A stretch of DNA of 24,787 nucleotides from Nitrospirae bacterium CG2_30_53_67 (GCA_001873285.1 MNYV01000122.1:1-24787), one strand, 5' to 3'. Counted from the first letter of the stretch, positions 13,999 through 20,503 are shown. The notes: generated by a model from the sequence alone, not told the origin. Translations and numbers: made by a program.

Positions 13999-14037
13999 AA
14001 TCACTTTACCCCCGGCAAAGCCGGGAGTAAAGTGATT
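13999..14037. repeat. 18-bp-arm hairpin, possible bidirectional terminator
   Basis: AATCACTTTACCCCCGGC pairs with GCCGGGAGTAAAGTGATT around a 3-nt AAA loop, with one mismatch. The stem would be very stable from either strand. Downstream of it the plus strand reads CTTTC rather than a clean T-run, so termination is only a possibility. Confidence 0.75.
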
Positions 14038-14199: not shown

Positions 14200-14227
14200 G
14201 CATTAAAAAGCTGATCCACCCTATTCG

Positions 14228-14308
14228 CCTCCCCTTTGTAAGGGGAGGATAGGTGGGGTAGATCCAGGGGGGGGCTACCTCCCCATTCCCCTCCTTACAA
14301 AGGAGGGG
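14228..14308. repeat. Pair of mirror-image C/G-rich hairpins
   Basis: Two hairpins, CCTCCCCTT-tgt-AAGGGGAGG (14228-14248) and CCCCTCCTT-aca-AAGGAGGGG (14288-14308), are themselves inverted relative to one another, with similar flanks (GGTGGGGTAG and CTACCTCCCC). The pair resembles the C-run/G-run intergenic repeats common in deltaproteobacteria-like genomes. Confidence 0.75.
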
Positions 14309-14333
14309 GAAATGAAATTCCTCCCGTCGCCTG

Positions 14334-14474: not shown

Positions 14475-14504
14475 CTGGATTCCCCGATCAAGTCGGGGAA
14501 TGAC
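14475..14504. repeat. 30-bp hairpin repeat, copy 1 (CTGGATTCCCCGAT family)
   Basis: TTCCCCGA pairs with TCGGGGAA around a 5-nt loop, and the flanks read CTGGA and TGAC. The same 30 bp recurs at 21587-21616 with one difference. Two partial copies of the right half (GGGGAATGACGGG and GGGGAATGACAGGG) follow at about 14517-14553. From the minus strand it lies downstream of actE and could stabilise or end that transcript. Confidence 0.85.
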
Positions 14505-14585
14505 GGGGTTGGCTGTGGGGAATGACGGGACTGGCTGTCGGGGAATGACAGGGTTTGTTAGGGAGGGATTCCCCTCTTGTCCGGA

Positions 14586-15071
14586 TCAAGACCCAGAAGG
14601 CCTTTCTCTGAAAACCCGCAGATAATTAACCAGGTTCCATCGCTCCTGAGGGGAAATCCTTTTCTGAAAGGAGGGCATGGTCCCGAAGCCGAAGGTGATC
14701 CGGATAAAGATGTCCGCATCCTTCATCTGCTGTATTCTTTGCTCATGGAGATTGGCCGGCTGAGGCAGAAACTTTTTTCCTACAGGACCGTCTCCAAACC
14801 CCTGCTTCCCGTGGCACATGGCGCAGTTGATCTCGAAGAGGGTCTCCCCCCGCTGAACCGATGCATCATTCACCGGTACAGGATTGATCAGCGTCTCTCC
14901 GGGGATCAAGACTTCCTTCCCTTGAATGGGCATGGATTCATCCGGTGATGAGAGCCTCGGCCCCTCCTGGGCCTTGAAGGACGGCTGATCTTCCATGTCA
15001 TGGCATCCCACAATGCCGAACAGGAATTCCGTTATGAGCAGAAACCGGATAGAGAAAATGAAGCGCCTCAT
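14586..15071 (-). CDS. actE: ActE-like monoheme cytochrome c lipoprotein of the ACIII-like complex
   Basis: A 161-residue exported protein with an N-terminal signal ending in a lipobox (GIVGC, Cys23), so it is predicted to be a lipoprotein. One c-type heme site, CAMCH (Cys83 to His87), and a likely distal Met in GTMPSF (Met132) give a class I cytochrome fold; LVNYLRVF is the usual C-terminal helix. In ACIII, ActE is the monoheme cytochrome that may pass electrons to soluble or oxidase-bound carriers. The start overlaps the actD stop by 4 bp (ATGA) with GGGGAGG 7 nt upstream. It is the last gene of the operon; no actF follows. Confidence 0.88.
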   Translation of the reverse strand: MRRFIFSIRFLLITEFLFGIVGCHDMEDQPSFKAQEGPRLSSPDESMPIQGKEVLIPGETLINPVPVNDASVQRGETLFEINCAMCHGKQGFGDGPVGKKFLPQPANLHEQRIQQMKDADIFIRITFGFGTMPSFQKRISPQERWNLVNYLRVFRERPSGS

Positions 15072-15595
15072 TTCTCGTCCTCCCCATACGTGCCTTCGGC
15101 AAGCCGGACCCTCACGGCCCCGGCCTTCTGCATGATCTCCCTGGCCTTGTCCTGCTGGTTCCGGTCCCTGCAGTCAACCAAGATCCCGATCAGTCCCCGT
15201 GATATCTCCGGATCATACAGGCGTTTTTTGAATTTAGGGAGCCCCATCTCCAGAAACATGCCGCCGATGGTTCCAAGAATGGCGAAGAGCATCATGAATT
15301 CATAGGTAATGATCCCTACGGGGAAAAGCGATATGATGGGCTTGTCCCCAGTATAAAGGGGATAGAGCCAGGCCGTAAGGACCGACAGGGAGAAACCAAG
15401 AATTATTCCCACCGCTCCGCCGGTTAGGGAGATCCAGCGGAAATAGGAGCGCCTCTCCTCCTTGACGATCACACCGTTCGGATACGGGGCGGAAGAGAGC
15501 GAGGTCATGGCCTTTTCATCCATGCCGCTCTGGATCAGGGCCTCCACGGCCCCGGCTGCGGTCTGCGGGTCTTTAAAAAGTCCCAGGGTTTCCAT
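15068..15595 (-). CDS. actD: ActD-like DUF3341 membrane subunit
   Basis: This 175-residue protein matches the DUF3341/ActD pattern: a soluble N-terminal part beginning METLGLFKDPQTAAGAVEAL, two transmembrane helices (about residues 55-80 and 95-120, GGAVGIILGFSLSVLTAW and GIITYEFMMLFAILGTIGG) and a short C-terminal domain. ActD has no cofactor; it packs against ActC at the membrane in known ACIII structures. It overlaps actC by 23 bp and actE by 4 bp, implying coupled translation. Its presence argues for ACIII rather than the related Qrc complex, which lacks this subunit. Confidence 0.88.
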   Translation of the reverse strand: METLGLFKDPQTAAGAVEALIQSGMDEKAMTSLSSAPYPNGVIVKEERRSYFRWISLTGGAVGIILGFSLSVLTAWLYPLYTGDKPIISLFPVGIITYEFMMLFAILGTIGGMFLEMGLPKFKKRLYDPEISRGLIGILVDCRDRNQQDKAREIMQKAGAVRVRLAEGTYGEDEK

Positions 15596-16970
15596 CCTGC
15601 TGTTCCTCCGTAATATGTGTATTCAAGGTCGTCCGGCCAAGCTGAGTCTTTGACCGCAAGATTTCGCCCTCCATCACATCGTTGATGGAGACAATGGGAA
15701 AGAACTTGGAAAAGAGTGTGTACAGGAGGGCGAATCCTGCAAATGCAGCAGCCATGATCGAGATCTCCACCCATGTGGGGTGGTAGACCCCCCAGATGAA
15801 AGGGACGTTCCTGTGAGAGAGGGTCGGGACCACAATCAGGAACCGCTCGATGAACATCCCCACGTTCACAAAAAGAGAGATGATCAGTATGGCCGGAATG
15901 GATCTTCGCACCTTTTTGAAGCAGAGCGCAGGAATCGTGATGCAGGAGTTCCCGAGCACCATGAGGCCGAGAAGATACCAGTACCGCTCTGCGATGAAGG
16001 TAAAGACCTCCCACTCGATGGGCTTGTGCCCGTACCAGGTCGTCAGAACCTCGGAAAAATAGAAATAGGTCCATAAGAGGGAGACGACGAGGAGGATCTT
16101 CCCCATATTGTCGAAATGGATCGGACGCAGATACGCCTCCAGATGAAAGGCCTTGCGGATCACCACCATGACCGTGATCACGGCGGCCACGCCCGAGAAG
16201 ATAGCCCCGATCACGAAATACGGAGCGAAGATGGTGCTGTGCCAACCCGGCACCAGGGTCATGGCGAAGTCCCAGGAGACGATGGAATGGACCGAGACGG
16301 CCACCGGGATGATCAGGACCGCCATGAGTGTGGATGCCTTGGCGAAGACGCGCCACTCGTGTGCCGATCCTCGCCATCCCATGGCAAGGACCGAATAGAG
16401 CTGCTTCCTCCAGCCCGAAGACCGGTCCCGTACGATAGCAAGATCAGGGAGCATCCCAAGGTAGAGAAAGAGCGAACTCCCGATGATATAGGTGGTAATG
16501 GCTATGATATCCCAGAGCAGGGGCGAGCGGAAGTTGGGCCAGAGGCCCCGCTGATTGGGGATGGGGAGAAAGTAGAGGAGCTTCCAGGGACGGCCCAGAT
16601 GGATCATGGGGAAGGTCCCGGCCACCAGGATCGTAAAAACGGTCAAGGCCTCGGCCCCCCGCAGGATCGGCCTTCGCCAGTTGGCCTTGGCAAGGCGGAG
16701 AATCGCGGAGACCATGGTCCCGGAGTGCGAGAGCCCAACCCAGAAGACAAAGCTGACGATATAGAACCCCCACATCACCGGAAGGTTGATCCCGGCCGCA
16801 CCCATTCCGACTTTGATCTGATAACCCCAGGCAATCCCTCCCCAGATCACGATGAGCCCCAAAAATCCTACAAGCAGAAACCACTTCCAGGTGGGCGGGT
16901 TCATGGATGAGGTCAGCTCCTGCTGTATGGTCTTTGTATCCTTTGAAACCAGGTCCCTGTCATCGGACAT
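15573..16970 (-). CDS. actC: ActC-like NrfD/PsrC family quinone-interacting membrane subunit
   Basis: A polytopic protein of about 465 residues with roughly ten transmembrane helices, in the NrfD/PsrC family, predicted to hold the periplasm-facing quinone site. Characteristic stretches include the first helix (WFLLVGFLGLIVIWGG), MWGFYIVSFVFWVGLSHSG, HLGRPW, SVHSIVSWDFA and VGMFIERFLIV. GGGAGG-type Shine-Dalgarno GGGAGGAGG (16978-16986) lies 7 nt from ATG 16970, so I prefer this to the ATG at 16976 only 1 nt away. The start overlaps the end of actB2. Polysulfide reductase subunits belong to the same family, but the D and E neighbours favour ACIII. Confidence 0.9.
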   Translation of the reverse strand: MSDDRDLVSKDTKTIQQELTSSMNPPTWKWFLLVGFLGLIVIWGGIAWGYQIKVGMGAAGINLPVMWGFYIVSFVFWVGLSHSGTMVSAILRLAKANWRRPILRGAEALTVFTILVAGTFPMIHLGRPWKLLYFLPIPNQRGLWPNFRSPLLWDIIAITTYIIGSSLFLYLGMLPDLAIVRDRSSGWRKQLYSVLAMGWRGSAHEWRVFAKASTLMAVLIIPVAVSVHSIVSWDFAMTLVPGWHSTIFAPYFVIGAIFSGVAAVITVMVVIRKAFHLEAYLRPIHFDNMGKILLVVSLLWTYFYFSEVLTTWYGHKPIEWEVFTFIAERYWYLLGLMVLGNSCITIPALCFKKVRRSIPAILIISLFVNVGMFIERFLIVVPTLSHRNVPFIWGVYHPTWVEISIMAAAFAGFALLYTLFSKFFPIVSINDVMEGEILRSKTQLGRTTLNTHITEEQQDGNPGTF

Positions 16971-17697
16971 GCTCATGTCCTCCTCCCTTGAGGTAGATCA
17001 CCGAGGGATCGGTCCCCAGATCCTCGATCAGCCGGAACCTCCTGGTGCTTCGGGACAGCCGGAAGACGCGGCTTTCAGGATCGGCCATATTGCCGAAGAC
17101 CATGGCCTCCGGCGGGCAGGTCTGGGCGCAGGCCGGCTGAATCTCGCCGTCACGGATGACCCTCCTCTCTTGTTTTGCCGCCTCCTTGGCCCGCCGTATC
17201 CTCTGGATACAGAAGGTGCACTTCTCCATGACCCCCTTGCTCCGGACGGTCACATCCGGATTGAGCTGCTGATTCAGCGGATCTGGGAATGACGGCTCAA
17301 AAAAATTGAAGACCCGAACCGAATAGGGGCAGTTGTTTGCGCAATACCGCGTCCCCACGCACCGGTTATAAACCTGTGCGTTCAGCCCCTCGGCATTATG
17401 GTAACTGGCATAGACCGGGCAGACCGGCTCGCACGGGGCGTTGTTGCACTGCTGGCAAAGGAGCGGGATGAACCTCGCCCGGACATTCGGATACTCCCCC
17501 TCCCAGTAGCGTTCAATCCGGATCCAGTGCATGGCGCGGCCGTAACCGCTCTTTTTCTTCCCCACGAAGGGGACGTTATTTTCCGCATGGCAGGCCACGA
17601 CGCAGGCGCCGCACCCGGTGCATCGGTCCAAGTCAATGATCATGCCCCATTTGTATTTCACTGTATGCCCTTTGTTGTCTGTGTCTTTCATACTCAT
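16960..17697 (-). CDS. actB2: ActB2-like iron-sulfur subunit (separate ferredoxin-type half of ActB)
   Basis: A 245-residue PsrB/ferredoxin-type protein. Its cysteines fall in the groups CTGCGACVVAC, CQQCNNAPCEPVC, CVGTRYCANNC, CTFC and CAQTC: 15 in all, which fits three [4Fe-4S] and one [3Fe-4S] cluster, the set known for ACIII. In most ACIII operons this domain is fused to the C-terminus of the molybdopterin-like ActB1; here it is a separate gene, as QrcC is in Qrc. No signal peptide is seen, so export would rely on its partner's Tat signal. The start region has no Shine-Dalgarno because the 37-bp gap before it is occupied by a repeat. An ATG at 17691 is an alternative. Confidence 0.9.
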   Translation of the reverse strand: MSMKDTDNKGHTVKYKWGMIIDLDRCTGCGACVVACHAENNVPFVGKKKSGYGRAMHWIRIERYWEGEYPNVRARFIPLLCQQCNNAPCEPVCPVYASYHNAEGLNAQVYNRCVGTRYCANNCPYSVRVFNFFEPSFPDPLNQQLNPDVTVRSKGVMEKCTFCIQRIRRAKEAAKQERRVIRDGEIQPACAQTCPPEAMVFGNMADPESRVFRLSRSTRRFRLIEDLGTDPSVIYLKGGGHEHVR

Positions 17698-17698
17698 G

Positions 17699-17727
17699 TT
17701 AAGGTTCTCGTAATAGAATGGACGTTG
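17699..17727 (-). repeat. Repeat copy 3, degenerate and inverted, in the actB1-actB2 gap
   Basis: On the plus strand the stretch TTAAGGTTCTCGTAATAGAA followed by TGGACG matches the reverse complement of copies 1 and 2 (TTAAGGTTCTCATAATAGAA then ACGACG). It fills almost all of the 37-bp gap between the actB1 stop and the actB2 start and leaves no room for a Shine-Dalgarno sequence. Confidence 0.75.
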
Positions 17728-17734
17728 ACACGGT

Positions 17735-19942
17735 TTAGATCTCCATCAGTTCTCCGCGGTAGCTCCCCTCCGGATGCCCCATGACCGTAAGATTCCCTTG
17801 GTCGGAAATCCGTGTCAGACGCACCCGGGTCGCACCCCAGGCCGGCAGCCTGTTCTCCTCATCCATGATCGGCGCAAGGAGGGCGAGCGGATTGGCGCCG
17901 ATATTCGAAGCGTAGCGCCCCATTCCCTGATGCCCCTGCCCCATGGGCACGGCCACCAGGTCCGGACGGATCGCCGGAAAGATCACGGCCGGCACGCGAA
18001 TCGCCCCCTGGGGCGACTCTACCTGGACCAGATCCCCCTGTTGAATGCCGAGGGATGCTGCGGTCTTGGGGTGGATCTCCACCCAGGAGCCCCATACGGC
18101 CGTGGTCATGGGGTCAGGGAGTTCCTGGAGCCATGGGAGATGAGCCTCACGTCCGTCATATAGAGAGGGAGAAGGAAAGACCGCAAGGTATAAGGGATAA
18201 GTCTCTTCATCCCCCTGGAAACGGGGCGGCCGCACCGGCGCCGGGCTGAATGTCCCGCTGATCTTCCGGGGGGCCGCGACCTGTTCCGGCCCGAATATCC
18301 CCCCTTTCTGCAAGATTCCGACCCAGATCCTTTCGAAAGCGGGTCCGGAAGGGGCGTTCAATTTTTTTTGCACAGACTCTTTGAGCATCTCGAGGTAATT
18401 CTTATACGGGAGAGCCTCCCGCATCTTCCCGCCGAGGGCCTGGGACGCGGTTAGGATCAGGTCCGGGACCGGCCGGGTATCATAAATCGGCCTCACCACC
18501 GGCTGCATCACCCCCGTCACAGAGGAACGGATACCGGCACGGGGGATCACATCGCCCCAGCTCTCCAGATCCGAATGGTCCGGAAGGATGAGGTCCGCGT
18601 ACCTGGATGTATCATCCATGATGGATGAAAAGCTGACTACGAAGGGGACCTTGAGGAAGGCTTCCTGAAACCGTGTGGATTTCGGGATACTGTAAACCGG
18701 GTTGCATAGATAGACCAGAGCCAGACCGATCTTCTGTGACTGCATGGCATCAATCGCCGAGACAAGGTCCGCAAAACCGCTTTGTTCCTCCGGGGCGGAT
18801 GATTCAGGCCGAAACAGAACCCCGCCCGGCTTCCCGACATTCCCGGCCAGAAGGTTTAGAAAATGGATGGCCTCAACTGCATCCCTGCCGTTGGTCTGGA
18901 AGGCCGCCGCGTCCCCGGCCATGGCAAGAGAAGGCCGGATCGTGGCAAACTCACGCGCGGTCGATGCAATCTCTTTCGGCTTGAGACCTGTAGCCTCGGC
19001 CACCTGCTGAAGGTCATATCCGGAAAGCCTTGCCTTCCATTCTTCGGGGTCTCCTCCCATGGCCTGAACCGCCTGGCGGTTATAAAGCCCCTCGTCGAGA
19101 ATCAGTTTGGCCATACCGAGCGCCAGGATACCCTCCTGCCCCGTCTTCACCGGGAGCCATCGGTCCGCGGAGGCCGCGGTCATGGAAAGCCGAGGCCCCG
19201 CGTAGGTGAACCGTCCCCGGATGGTCGGGCGGGCCTGGCGCATCTTTCCGAAGGCATTCCCGTACCGGACAGGTGAAAGGTAAGTTTCCAGGAAATCCGC
19301 CCCGAAACTCAGGAGATATTGCGTATGCTCGATGTCATAGTCCGGAAGGTCGGACCTGCCGTACACGGCAAGGCCGGCCTGTTCATCACATTCGGTCGAC
19401 AGGAACTCGTAAGAGAGGCGCCGGGGAGATCCATACGCAGTCATGAAGGTCCGGAATAATTCATGTAGAGACCCTTGCAGCCTGGGGGTCACCAGGAGGA
19501 GTTGATCGGCCCGGCCCTGATCCTTCAGTCCCTTCAACTGCTCCACCAGAATCTTCATCCCCTCTGCCCAGGAGATGGGAGCAAAGGCGCCGGACCTTTT
19601 GGCCCCAGTCCGCTTCATGGGCTGACGGATCCGGTCCGGATGGTAGAGATCCTGCAGAGCCGCCTGGCCCCTTGCACAGAGCCTGCCCTGATTGACCGGA
19701 TGAAGGGGGTTCCCTTCGATTTTCTTGGCACGCCCTTCGGCGACCTGAACCAGGGTCCCGCACCCTGCAGGGCATTGCCTGCAGGCGCTTGCGAAATAGT
19801 TCACCACGCCGGGAATGGATCCGTCATCCGGCGGGATGAGGAACGGGATCAGCTTCTCGGCCCCTTTACCGCATGATGACAGCATGGTCCCCGCGGCGGT
19901 CAACCCGGTCAATTGCAGAAACTTTCTCCGTTTGATTCCCAT
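17735..19942 (-). CDS. actB1: ActB1-like molybdopterin-oxidoreductase-fold subunit with Tat signal
   Basis: A 735-residue member of the molybdopterin oxidoreductase family, predicted as the large periplasmic subunit. I start it at ATG 19942 (MGIKRRKFLQLTGL), giving a compact Tat signal (RRKFLQ) and a possible lipobox, LSSC; an upstream in-frame TTG at 19960 lies in a repeat. An N-terminal cysteine set (CRQCPAGC, then Cys in GRLCARG about 26 residues on) looks like the proximal cluster motif of Mo enzymes. In characterised ACIII and Qrc this subunit lacks molybdenum; whether that holds here cannot be read from sequence alone. The C-terminal MopB-type domain (KTAASLGIQQGDLVQVESPQG) is complete, so the split from actB2 leaves both halves intact. 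Confidence 0.88.
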   Translation of the reverse strand: MGIKRRKFLQLTGLTAAGTMLSSCGKGAEKLIPFLIPPDDGSIPGVVNYFASACRQCPAGCGTLVQVAEGRAKKIEGNPLHPVNQGRLCARGQAALQDLYHPDRIRQPMKRTGAKRSGAFAPISWAEGMKILVEQLKGLKDQGRADQLLLVTPRLQGSLHELFRTFMTAYGSPRRLSYEFLSTECDEQAGLAVYGRSDLPDYDIEHTQYLLSFGADFLETYLSPVRYGNAFGKMRQARPTIRGRFTYAGPRLSMTAASADRWLPVKTGQEGILALGMAKLILDEGLYNRQAVQAMGGDPEEWKARLSGYDLQQVAEATGLKPKEIASTAREFATIRPSLAMAGDAAAFQTNGRDAVEAIHFLNLLAGNVGKPGGVLFRPESSAPEEQSGFADLVSAIDAMQSQKIGLALVYLCNPVYSIPKSTRFQEAFLKVPFVVSFSSIMDDTSRYADLILPDHSDLESWGDVIPRAGIRSSVTGVMQPVVRPIYDTRPVPDLILTASQALGGKMREALPYKNYLEMLKESVQKKLNAPSGPAFERIWVGILQKGGIFGPEQVAAPRKISGTFSPAPVRPPRFQGDEETYPLYLAVFPSPSLYDGREAHLPWLQELPDPMTTAVWGSWVEIHPKTAASLGIQQGDLVQVESPQGAIRVPAVIFPAIRPDLVAVPMGQGHQGMGRYASNIGANPLALLAPIMDEENRLPAWGATRVRLTRISDQGNLTVMGHPEGSYRGELMEI

Positions 19943-19950
19943 AGTCTCTT

Positions 19951-19984
19951 TCAATTTCAAATCTCAAATTTCAAATTTGAAATC
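19951..19984. repeat. AT-rich repeat between actA and actB1
   Basis: The run TCAATTTCAAATCTCAAAT continues into the perfect 14-bp palindrome TTTCAAATTTGAAA (19969-19982). The ATTTCAAAT/ATTTGAAAT wording is typical of dispersed AT-rich intergenic repeats. It fills the 45 bp between actA and the preferred actB1 start, so spacing of these coupled genes has been altered by repeat DNA. Confidence 0.7.
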
Positions 19985-19987
19985 TCT

Positions 19988-20503
19988 TTATACATGACAC
20001 GTCCAGCAATCAATACTCACCTTGTTCTTGCGGTGGCAGCCCAGGCACCATCCCATCTTGAGGCTGGAGACTCTCCGGATCCGGTCCATGGAGGCCACGT
20101 CCCCATGGCAGAAGGTACAGGCCGTTCCTGCATTGACGTGCATCTTGTGAGGAAAATAGACATGGTCCGGAAGATCATGCGCCTTGACCCAGGGGACAGG
20201 CTCCTTGTTCTTCCAGTACTCCATGAGTTTCTTGACCTCGGGATTGTCACGAGCGATGATGATATGGCAGTTTCTGCAGGTCTCCAGGTCCGGCACCCCG
20301 GCAGACCTTGAGACCTTCGCGTACCGGTGGCAGTAAAGGCAATGGATCTCATTTTCCCCGGCATGAACCTTGTGGCTGAAGGCAATGGGCTGGACCGGGG
20401 ACGGGTCCCCTGTGCTCAATGGGATCAGATAAATGCCGAAAAGAGCGGCAGCCGCTGCGAAGCCAAGAAGGACCAGGATCATCACCACCAAGGACGTTCT
20501 CAT
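19988..20503 (-). CDS. actA: ActA-like pentaheme cytochrome c subunit
   Basis: A 171-residue membrane-anchored cytochrome: an N-terminal transmembrane helix (about residues 5-26) followed by a periplasmic part with five CXXCH heme sites, CLYCH (55-59), CRNCH (76-80), CTFCH (129-133), CLGCH (153-157) and CWTCH (166-170). Extra His in FSHKVH and FPHKMH are likely distal ligands. Five hemes match ActA, while the related QrcA has six. It leads the operon; GGAG lies 6 nt before the ATG and a good promoter sits just upstream. The last heme motif ends one residue before the stop, so the C-terminus is minimal. Confidence 0.92.
   Translation of the reverse strand: MRTSLVVMILVLLGFAAAAALFGIYLIPLSTGDPSPVQPIAFSHKVHAGENEIHCLYCHRYAKVSRSAGVPDLETCRNCHIIIARDNPEVKKLMEYWKNKEPVPWVKAHDLPDHVYFPHKMHVNAGTACTFCHGDVASMDRIRRVSSLKMGWCLGCHRKNKVSIDCWTCHV

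Follow-up and report, generated by a model that had tools for sequence, protein, structure and literature searches.

A probable six-gene alternative complex III operon with separate ActB1 and ActB2 genes and no ActF in Nitrospirae bacterium CG2_30_53_67

A 24,787-nucleotide stretch of DNA from Nitrospirae bacterium CG2_30_53_67 (GCA_001873285.1, MNYV01000122.1:1-24787), referred to here as the window, carries a respiratory operon of six genes in the order A-B1-B2-C-D-E on the minus strand at 14586-20503. The operon shares features with both alternative complex III (ACIII) and the quinone reductase complex (Qrc) of sulfate reducers, raising the question of which of these it encodes and how the two are related to it. 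Textbook ACIII has a fused ActB and often an adjoining oxidase (PMC5928083), and published NrfD trees place Qrc and ACIII in two distinct clades whose common precursor is unclear (PMC6303296). Judged from its sequence, the operon probably encodes an early, pre-fusion ACIII of six subunits (A, B1, B2, C, D and E, with no ActF) that would carry electrons from quinol to periplasmic cytochromes, and both its gene content and its position as the sister lineage of all sampled fused ACIII are well supported.

Subunits of the window operon

The initial annotation had read this gene order, and the principal traits of each subunit, from the DNA itself, and that description holds at every gene. ActA (19988-20503) is a five-heme cytochrome c with a membrane helix at its N-terminus (PF14522/PF02085) and exactly five CXXCH motifs, and its best solved relatives are the ACIII ActA chains 6btm_A and 6f0k_A (E 1e-38 to 1e-36). 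After a gap of 27 nt, actB1 (17735-19960) encodes the molybdopterin-fold subunit (PF00384, PF01568, PF04879). Its annotated start is a TTG at 19960, but the position of the downstream twin-arginine motif, MGIKRRKFLQ, makes an internal ATG near 19942 the likely true start; a lipobox, LSSC, with Cys30 follows the motif. A further gap of 37 nt separates actB1 from actB2 (16960-17697), making these two genes and not one fused ActB. ActB2 is an iron-sulfur subunit with four clusters (PF12838/PF13247), and among PDB chains it best matches the C-terminal part of the ACIII ActB chain 6f0k_B (E 2.5e-78). It has exactly 15 cysteines, the would-be sixteenth being Thr116, where Qrc, Dsr and relatives with only the four genes A, B1, B2 and C have cysteine.

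The genes after actB2 overlap by 17, 23 and 4 nt, the last of these being the actD/actE junction. They encode the NrfD-like, quinol-binding membrane subunit ActC (15573-16976; PF03916, 96 bits), the ACIII-characteristic membrane subunit ActD (15068-15595; PF11821, 101 bits against a cut-off of 25.7) and ActE (14586-15071; PF13442/PF00034), a cytochrome c lipoprotein with one heme and the lipobox IVGC. ActE matches the ACIII chains 8k9e_E, 6lod_E and 6f0k_E at E values of about 1e-12, while ActD matches the solved ActD chains weakly (E 0.002-0.09); for every subunit, ACIII chains are among the best or near-best solved relatives. Neither ActF, or any other second NrfD gene, nor an oxidase was found in the window by Pfam scan and inspection of the neighboring genes, as the initial annotation had also stated. 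The same six genes occur in the same order, at 70-89% identity, in a sister species (G003), indicating that the arrangement is not due to chance.

ActC aligns with 6f0k_C at an E value of 8.7e-102 and its score with a model made from ACIII loci is 503 bits, compared to 30-47 bits for true QrcD where it lies on the contig. When ActC was compared with the quinol-site and channel residues of Rhodothermus marinus (PMC5928083), all listed residues were found to be kept, except for E450, which is replaced by Asp433. His126, Asp156 and Asp236 correspond to R. marinus His139, Asp169 and Asp253, whereas the four-gene relatives have Asp for His139 and Val or Ile for Asp253. In ActD, Glu99 is the equivalent of R. 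marinus Glu122, the proposed coupling glutamate. The ACIII-like quinol site favors quinol oxidation, although direction cannot be fixed from residues alone.

We propose that menaquinol, the presumed substrate, would be oxidized at the periplasmic pocket of ActC and that its electrons would pass through the nearest ActB2 cluster into the five-heme wire of ActA and on to ActE or a soluble cytochrome c. ActB1 would serve as a structural relic of a molybdoenzyme, with one cluster motif kept and no conserved Mo ligand, and the complex would have one ion-conducting NrfD subunit instead of two, since both proton half-channels have their residues in ActC and the proposed coupling glutamate is present in ActD. 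Activity, direction, proton translocation, the acceptor and menaquinone as the substrate are all parts of this scheme that we infer. The canonical complexes of R. marinus (6F0K), Flavobacterium johnsoniae (6BTM) and Roseiflexus castenholzii share with the window a five-heme ActA, the ActC quinol site and channels, ActD, ActE and a 15-cysteine iron-sulfur part, but have a fused ActB and an ActF. The four-cysteine FS0 motif of ActB1 (C60-X2-C-X3-C-X27-C95) occurs in the window, in Qrc, in the four-gene complexes and in those fused forms that branch early, and derived fused forms have lost it.

Placement among split and fused complexes

Trees of the individual subunits and of concatenated B1, B2 and C were built without the split complexes of Nitrospirales and iron oxidizers, and the groups compared by the approximately unbiased (AU) test were picked after sight of a first tree. 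In the B2 tree, rooted with Dsr/Mo-type outgroups, Qrc and the four-gene split types fall on one side (support 88), and an acidobacterial split locus, the window and its sister species, and all fused ACIII fall on the other (99), with the fused forms making a single clade (98). The B1 tree, with a molybdoenzyme root, gives the same picture with a fused clade at 100, and the fused forms also lie on one side of a branch in the ActC tree (90). In the careful concatenated tree the fused clade is supported at 100/100, the window pair is its sister at 100/99 and the acidobacterial locus comes next. The window remained sister to the fused clade after further Acidobacteriota loci were added (100 by the Shimodaira-Hasegawa-like approximate likelihood ratio test; 100/100 in the careful tree), with the split loci of Acidobacteriota as a grade below it and Qrc and the four-gene type further out. 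Placing all split, ActD-bearing forms in one clade was rejected by the AU test (p 1.66e-6).

Since the outgroup families encode their catalytic and iron-sulfur subunits in separate genes, the fusion is derived. With the window sister to the fused clade and a split grade below both, its Qrc-like features (split ActB, the FS0 motif and no ActF) are retained ancestral states, while Thr116 of ActB2, His126 and Asp236 of ActC, and the presence of ActD are shared derived traits that place it with ACIII. The suggestion in the initial annotation of an evolutionary intermediate is thus correct in that the operon is sister to all sampled fused ACIII and stands above a split, ActF-less grade, but not in the sense of a complex halfway to Qrc.

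The acidobacterial grade was sampled by scanning 396 Acidobacteriota genomes with the ActC model, which gave matches in 285, with about 41 genomes at 559 bits or above and then a gap to 518. Thirty-two loci were compared, 31 of them high-scoring and one from below the gap, which proved to be of the four-gene type. All 31 high-scoring loci have separate B1 and B2 genes and an ActD match, no second NrfD gene was found in their stretches, and ActE was detected in 16. These loci (for example, L162, L228 and L244) resemble the window in having separate B1 and B2, ActD, no ActF and a Thr in the iron-sulfur motif, and differ in branching below it and in an ActE that is often upstream of ActA or undetected. 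Five loci that looked like split ActB with ActF (L030, L039, L040, L064 and L092) were dismissed, as their contigs or stretches start inside ActB, and L059 and L079 proved to be of the four-gene type, with an additional NrfD. On a Gemmatimonadota chromosome, neither ActF nor ActE was detected within 8 kb of the fused ActB locus L031. No relatives were found in the phage records searched or the viral contigs scanned.

Split complexes have been described before. In 47 Nitrospirales genomes ActB is split and ActF and ActG are absent, with other phyla mentioned by citation (PMC12342949), and the ACIII of N. marina is said to be similar to that of sulfur-reducing Acidobacteria (PMC8115632). Compared by description only, the Nitrospirales complexes have the same A-B1-B2-C-D-E subunit list as the window and differ in lying mostly beside a bd-like oxidase (PMC12342949, PMC8115632). 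Neutrophilic iron oxidizers have split ActB with ActF, as actA-B1-B2-C-D-E-F (PMC4643136), and by description share the FS0 motif and split ActB with the window and differ from it by ActF. As split, ActF-less ACIII is known from Nitrospirales, the composition of the window operon is not new; what is useful is where it falls, next to the fused clade, and no split form placed as sister to that clade was found in the open-access papers searched.

Alternative readings of the operon

For ActA, ActB1 and ActB2, the top-ranked NCBIfam models are QrcA, QrcB and QrcC (92.7, 322 and 253 bits), and QrcB and QrcC are likewise separate genes, so a divergent QrcABCD followed by two downstream genes had to be considered. 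However, these scores are far under the curated cut-offs of 180, 440 and 400, which five true Qrc loci from sulfate reducers pass, the NCBIfam scan of the window proteins gave no QrcD match, QrcD barely matches the ActC model and the trees set Qrc apart from the window at 100/100. Qrc does share with the window separate B and C proteins, the FS0 motif and a single NrfD-like subunit, but it has neither D nor E, its QrcD belongs to a distant branch of NrfD and QrcC has 16 cysteines, with Cys where the window has Thr; the probability of a divergent Qrc is close to negligible. The six hemes of QrcA that the initial annotation had used to tell the two apart do not discriminate, since QrcA in the five sampled loci has five CXXCH motifs, or four plus one CX4CH, against the six stated for D. 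vulgaris. An oxidoreductase of the complex iron-sulfur molybdoenzyme family, with Mo or W and a substrate of its own, would account for all the molybdopterin fold domains and the FS0 motif in ActB1 and for its top solved match, the arsenate reductase ArrA, with ACIII ActB next. At the Mo-ligand position, though, the window has Ser and the sister species Asn, and the residue varies across the clade, which fits a cofactor-free ActB1 and leaves a true molybdoenzyme extremely unlikely. A canonical ACIII in which ActB split recently and ActF was lost finds some agreement in the ActA tree, where the window stands beside the early fused forms L091 and L163 without strong support. Against this, the fused forms make one clade at 100/100 that excludes the window, nesting the window with its nearest fused forms was rejected by the AU test (p 1.7e-59), and with Dsr and Mo-type outgroups the root of both the B1 and the B2 tree falls outside the fused clade; a recent fission inside canonical ACIII is refuted for the present sampling and is, overall, very unlikely.

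The same complex could also run in reverse, oxidizing cytochrome c and reducing menaquinone, as Qrc does in sulfate reducers. The genome of the window species (G000; 2.36 Mb, 183 contigs, 95% complete, one of eight genomes sampled from a phylum-level group) was checked for sulfate-reduction genes and these were found. It has aprA over the cut-off and dsrA over the cut-off on two contigs, with consecutive dsrA, dsrB and dsrD-like genes on C147 and a DsrMKJOP-like set on C153 (dsrD and the DsrMKJOP set read by eye). The second dsrA, at L130 on C37, is accompanied by a dsrB-like match and an NrfD-like gene and lies beside molybdopterin-subunit ORFs. As no protein in the genome is over the QrcB cut-off, entry of electrons from cytochrome to quinone might be needed. 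On the other side, His126 and Asp236 of ActC are the ACIII residues and differ from those of the four-gene relatives, and the genome has a four-gene complex of its own, nearer Qrc in the B2 and B1 trees and with Asp where ACIII has its quinol-site His, that could fill this role. Use of the window complex as a quinone reductase, which the initial annotation had raised, thus gains no support from the quinol site and is rather unlikely.

That four-gene complex, A-B1-B2-C, is present in seven of the eight group genomes and in partial form on C165 of the window genome (L007:3-4124), where the contig cuts B1 and ends soon after C, leaving partial B1, B2 and C. Such complexes, found also in Bacteroidetes, Zixibacteria, Desulfobacterales and Thermoanaerobaculia, share the split ActB and five-heme ActA of the window, but have no D, no ACIII His or second Asp in ActC, and 16 cysteines in B2. 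Three of them (L243, L057 and L164) lie beside multiheme cytochromes with 4, 14 and 6 heme motifs and are possibly part of electron export chains.

Electron acceptor, genome context and the assembly of ACIII

For a pre-fusion ACIII oxidizing quinol, the most likely acceptor in the window species would be a periplasmic cytochrome c feeding an NO reductase and a cytochrome c peroxidase, not an O2 reductase. The sole full-length heme-copper protein of the window genome is NorB-like (443 aa, NO reductase), in a cluster with a NorC-like cytochrome, a NorQ-type ATPase and a NorD-like VWA protein (L128:5522-10698, C146), and cytochrome c peroxidase is present in both species with the window-type operon. 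In a heme-copper survey of the eight genomes, no full-length O2-type oxidase was found in these two species, the sister species having only a 188-aa COX1-like fragment, while the six others gave full COX1 matches of about 347-503 bits. Two genomes of another genus (L120 and L121; G004:C35 and G005:C115) have fused ActB with ActF, and full COX1 elsewhere, indicating that the group has fused ACIII in one genus and pre-fusion ACIII in another. Contrary to one outcome considered at the outset, no ActF elsewhere in the draft window genome was recognized among its eight NrfD-family matches, although the gene context of the match on C161 was not examined in detail. This match (L144) is an NrfD-like frame of 381 aa, which may be DsrP-like or of another kind, and a 317-aa iron-sulfur protein is encoded near it.

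Several observations weigh against this interpretation. An oxidase or ActF gene may have been missed, since the assemblies are 95-97% complete, and no full-length NorB match was found in the sister species, so an NO-reductase acceptor is not common to both. A cytochrome oxidase operon lies close to the complex in one acidobacterial relative, and some relatives lie near oxidase genes. The non-oxygen acceptor proposed in the initial annotation therefore draws circumstantial support from the two species without a full O2-type oxidase, the window species with its NO reductase among them, but is not a trait of the whole type. The ActA tree, mostly without support, puts the window beside fused forms, and the sampling lacks the split complexes of Nitrospirales and iron oxidizers. 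ACIII-like clusters lie away from oxidases in MBNT15 (PMC9386147). ACIII transcripts rise with oxygen in a sulfate-reducing acidobacterium (PMC10564751), which advises caution about a general anaerobic role.

In the sister species, the operon is split between actD and actE by a bc-type block (L119:1264-7973, G003:C14) encoding a small cytochrome c, an FAD/iron-sulfur protein, a Rieske protein, cytochrome b and a cytochrome with nine heme motifs. Directly upstream of its actE is RTAEGPYGEDE-stop, which matches the last codons of the window actD, RLAEGTYGEDEK-stop, while the actD of the sister species itself has a different end. This remnant of the actD 3' end indicates that the D-E adjacency is older and that the bc-type block was inserted in the sister species. 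The window genome has only a cytochrome b that is 32% identical to that of the block and is located elsewhere, on C31.

Around the window operon, a translation/RNA operon lies to the left on the opposite strand, and korB-korA lie upstream, followed past a short unassigned ORF by rubrerythrin. In the gap after actE there are direct repeats of 22 nt, in three imperfect copies (14495-14561), and two inverted repeats, one of 18 nt that is nearly perfect (13999-14037) and one of 39 nt (14223-14313). A promoter scan gave matches no more numerous than in shuffles, and the terminator-like matches were weak and overlapping.

The way in which molybdoenzyme, cytochrome and NrfD modules came together as ACIII has yet to be settled, and an early branch that still has two separate ActB proteins informs the order of that assembly. 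The order that can be tested with trees runs from an A-B1-B2-C core, through the gain of ActD and the Thr and His/Asp changes, to the fusion of ActB and the addition of ActF. More tentatively, the window complex may be the nearest surviving pre-fusion relative of all canonical ACIII, a single-channel quinol:cytochrome c oxidoreductase in sulfate reducers without an O2-type heme-copper oxidase, in which case ACIII would trace back to an anaerobic metabolism based on cytochromes and ActF and the fusion would have come later with aerobic chains. Automatic labels are unsafe for such operons, given that the QrcA, QrcB and QrcC models rank first for ACIII subunits. A natural complex with one NrfD subunit in place of two also lends itself to testing whether proton translocation requires ActF.

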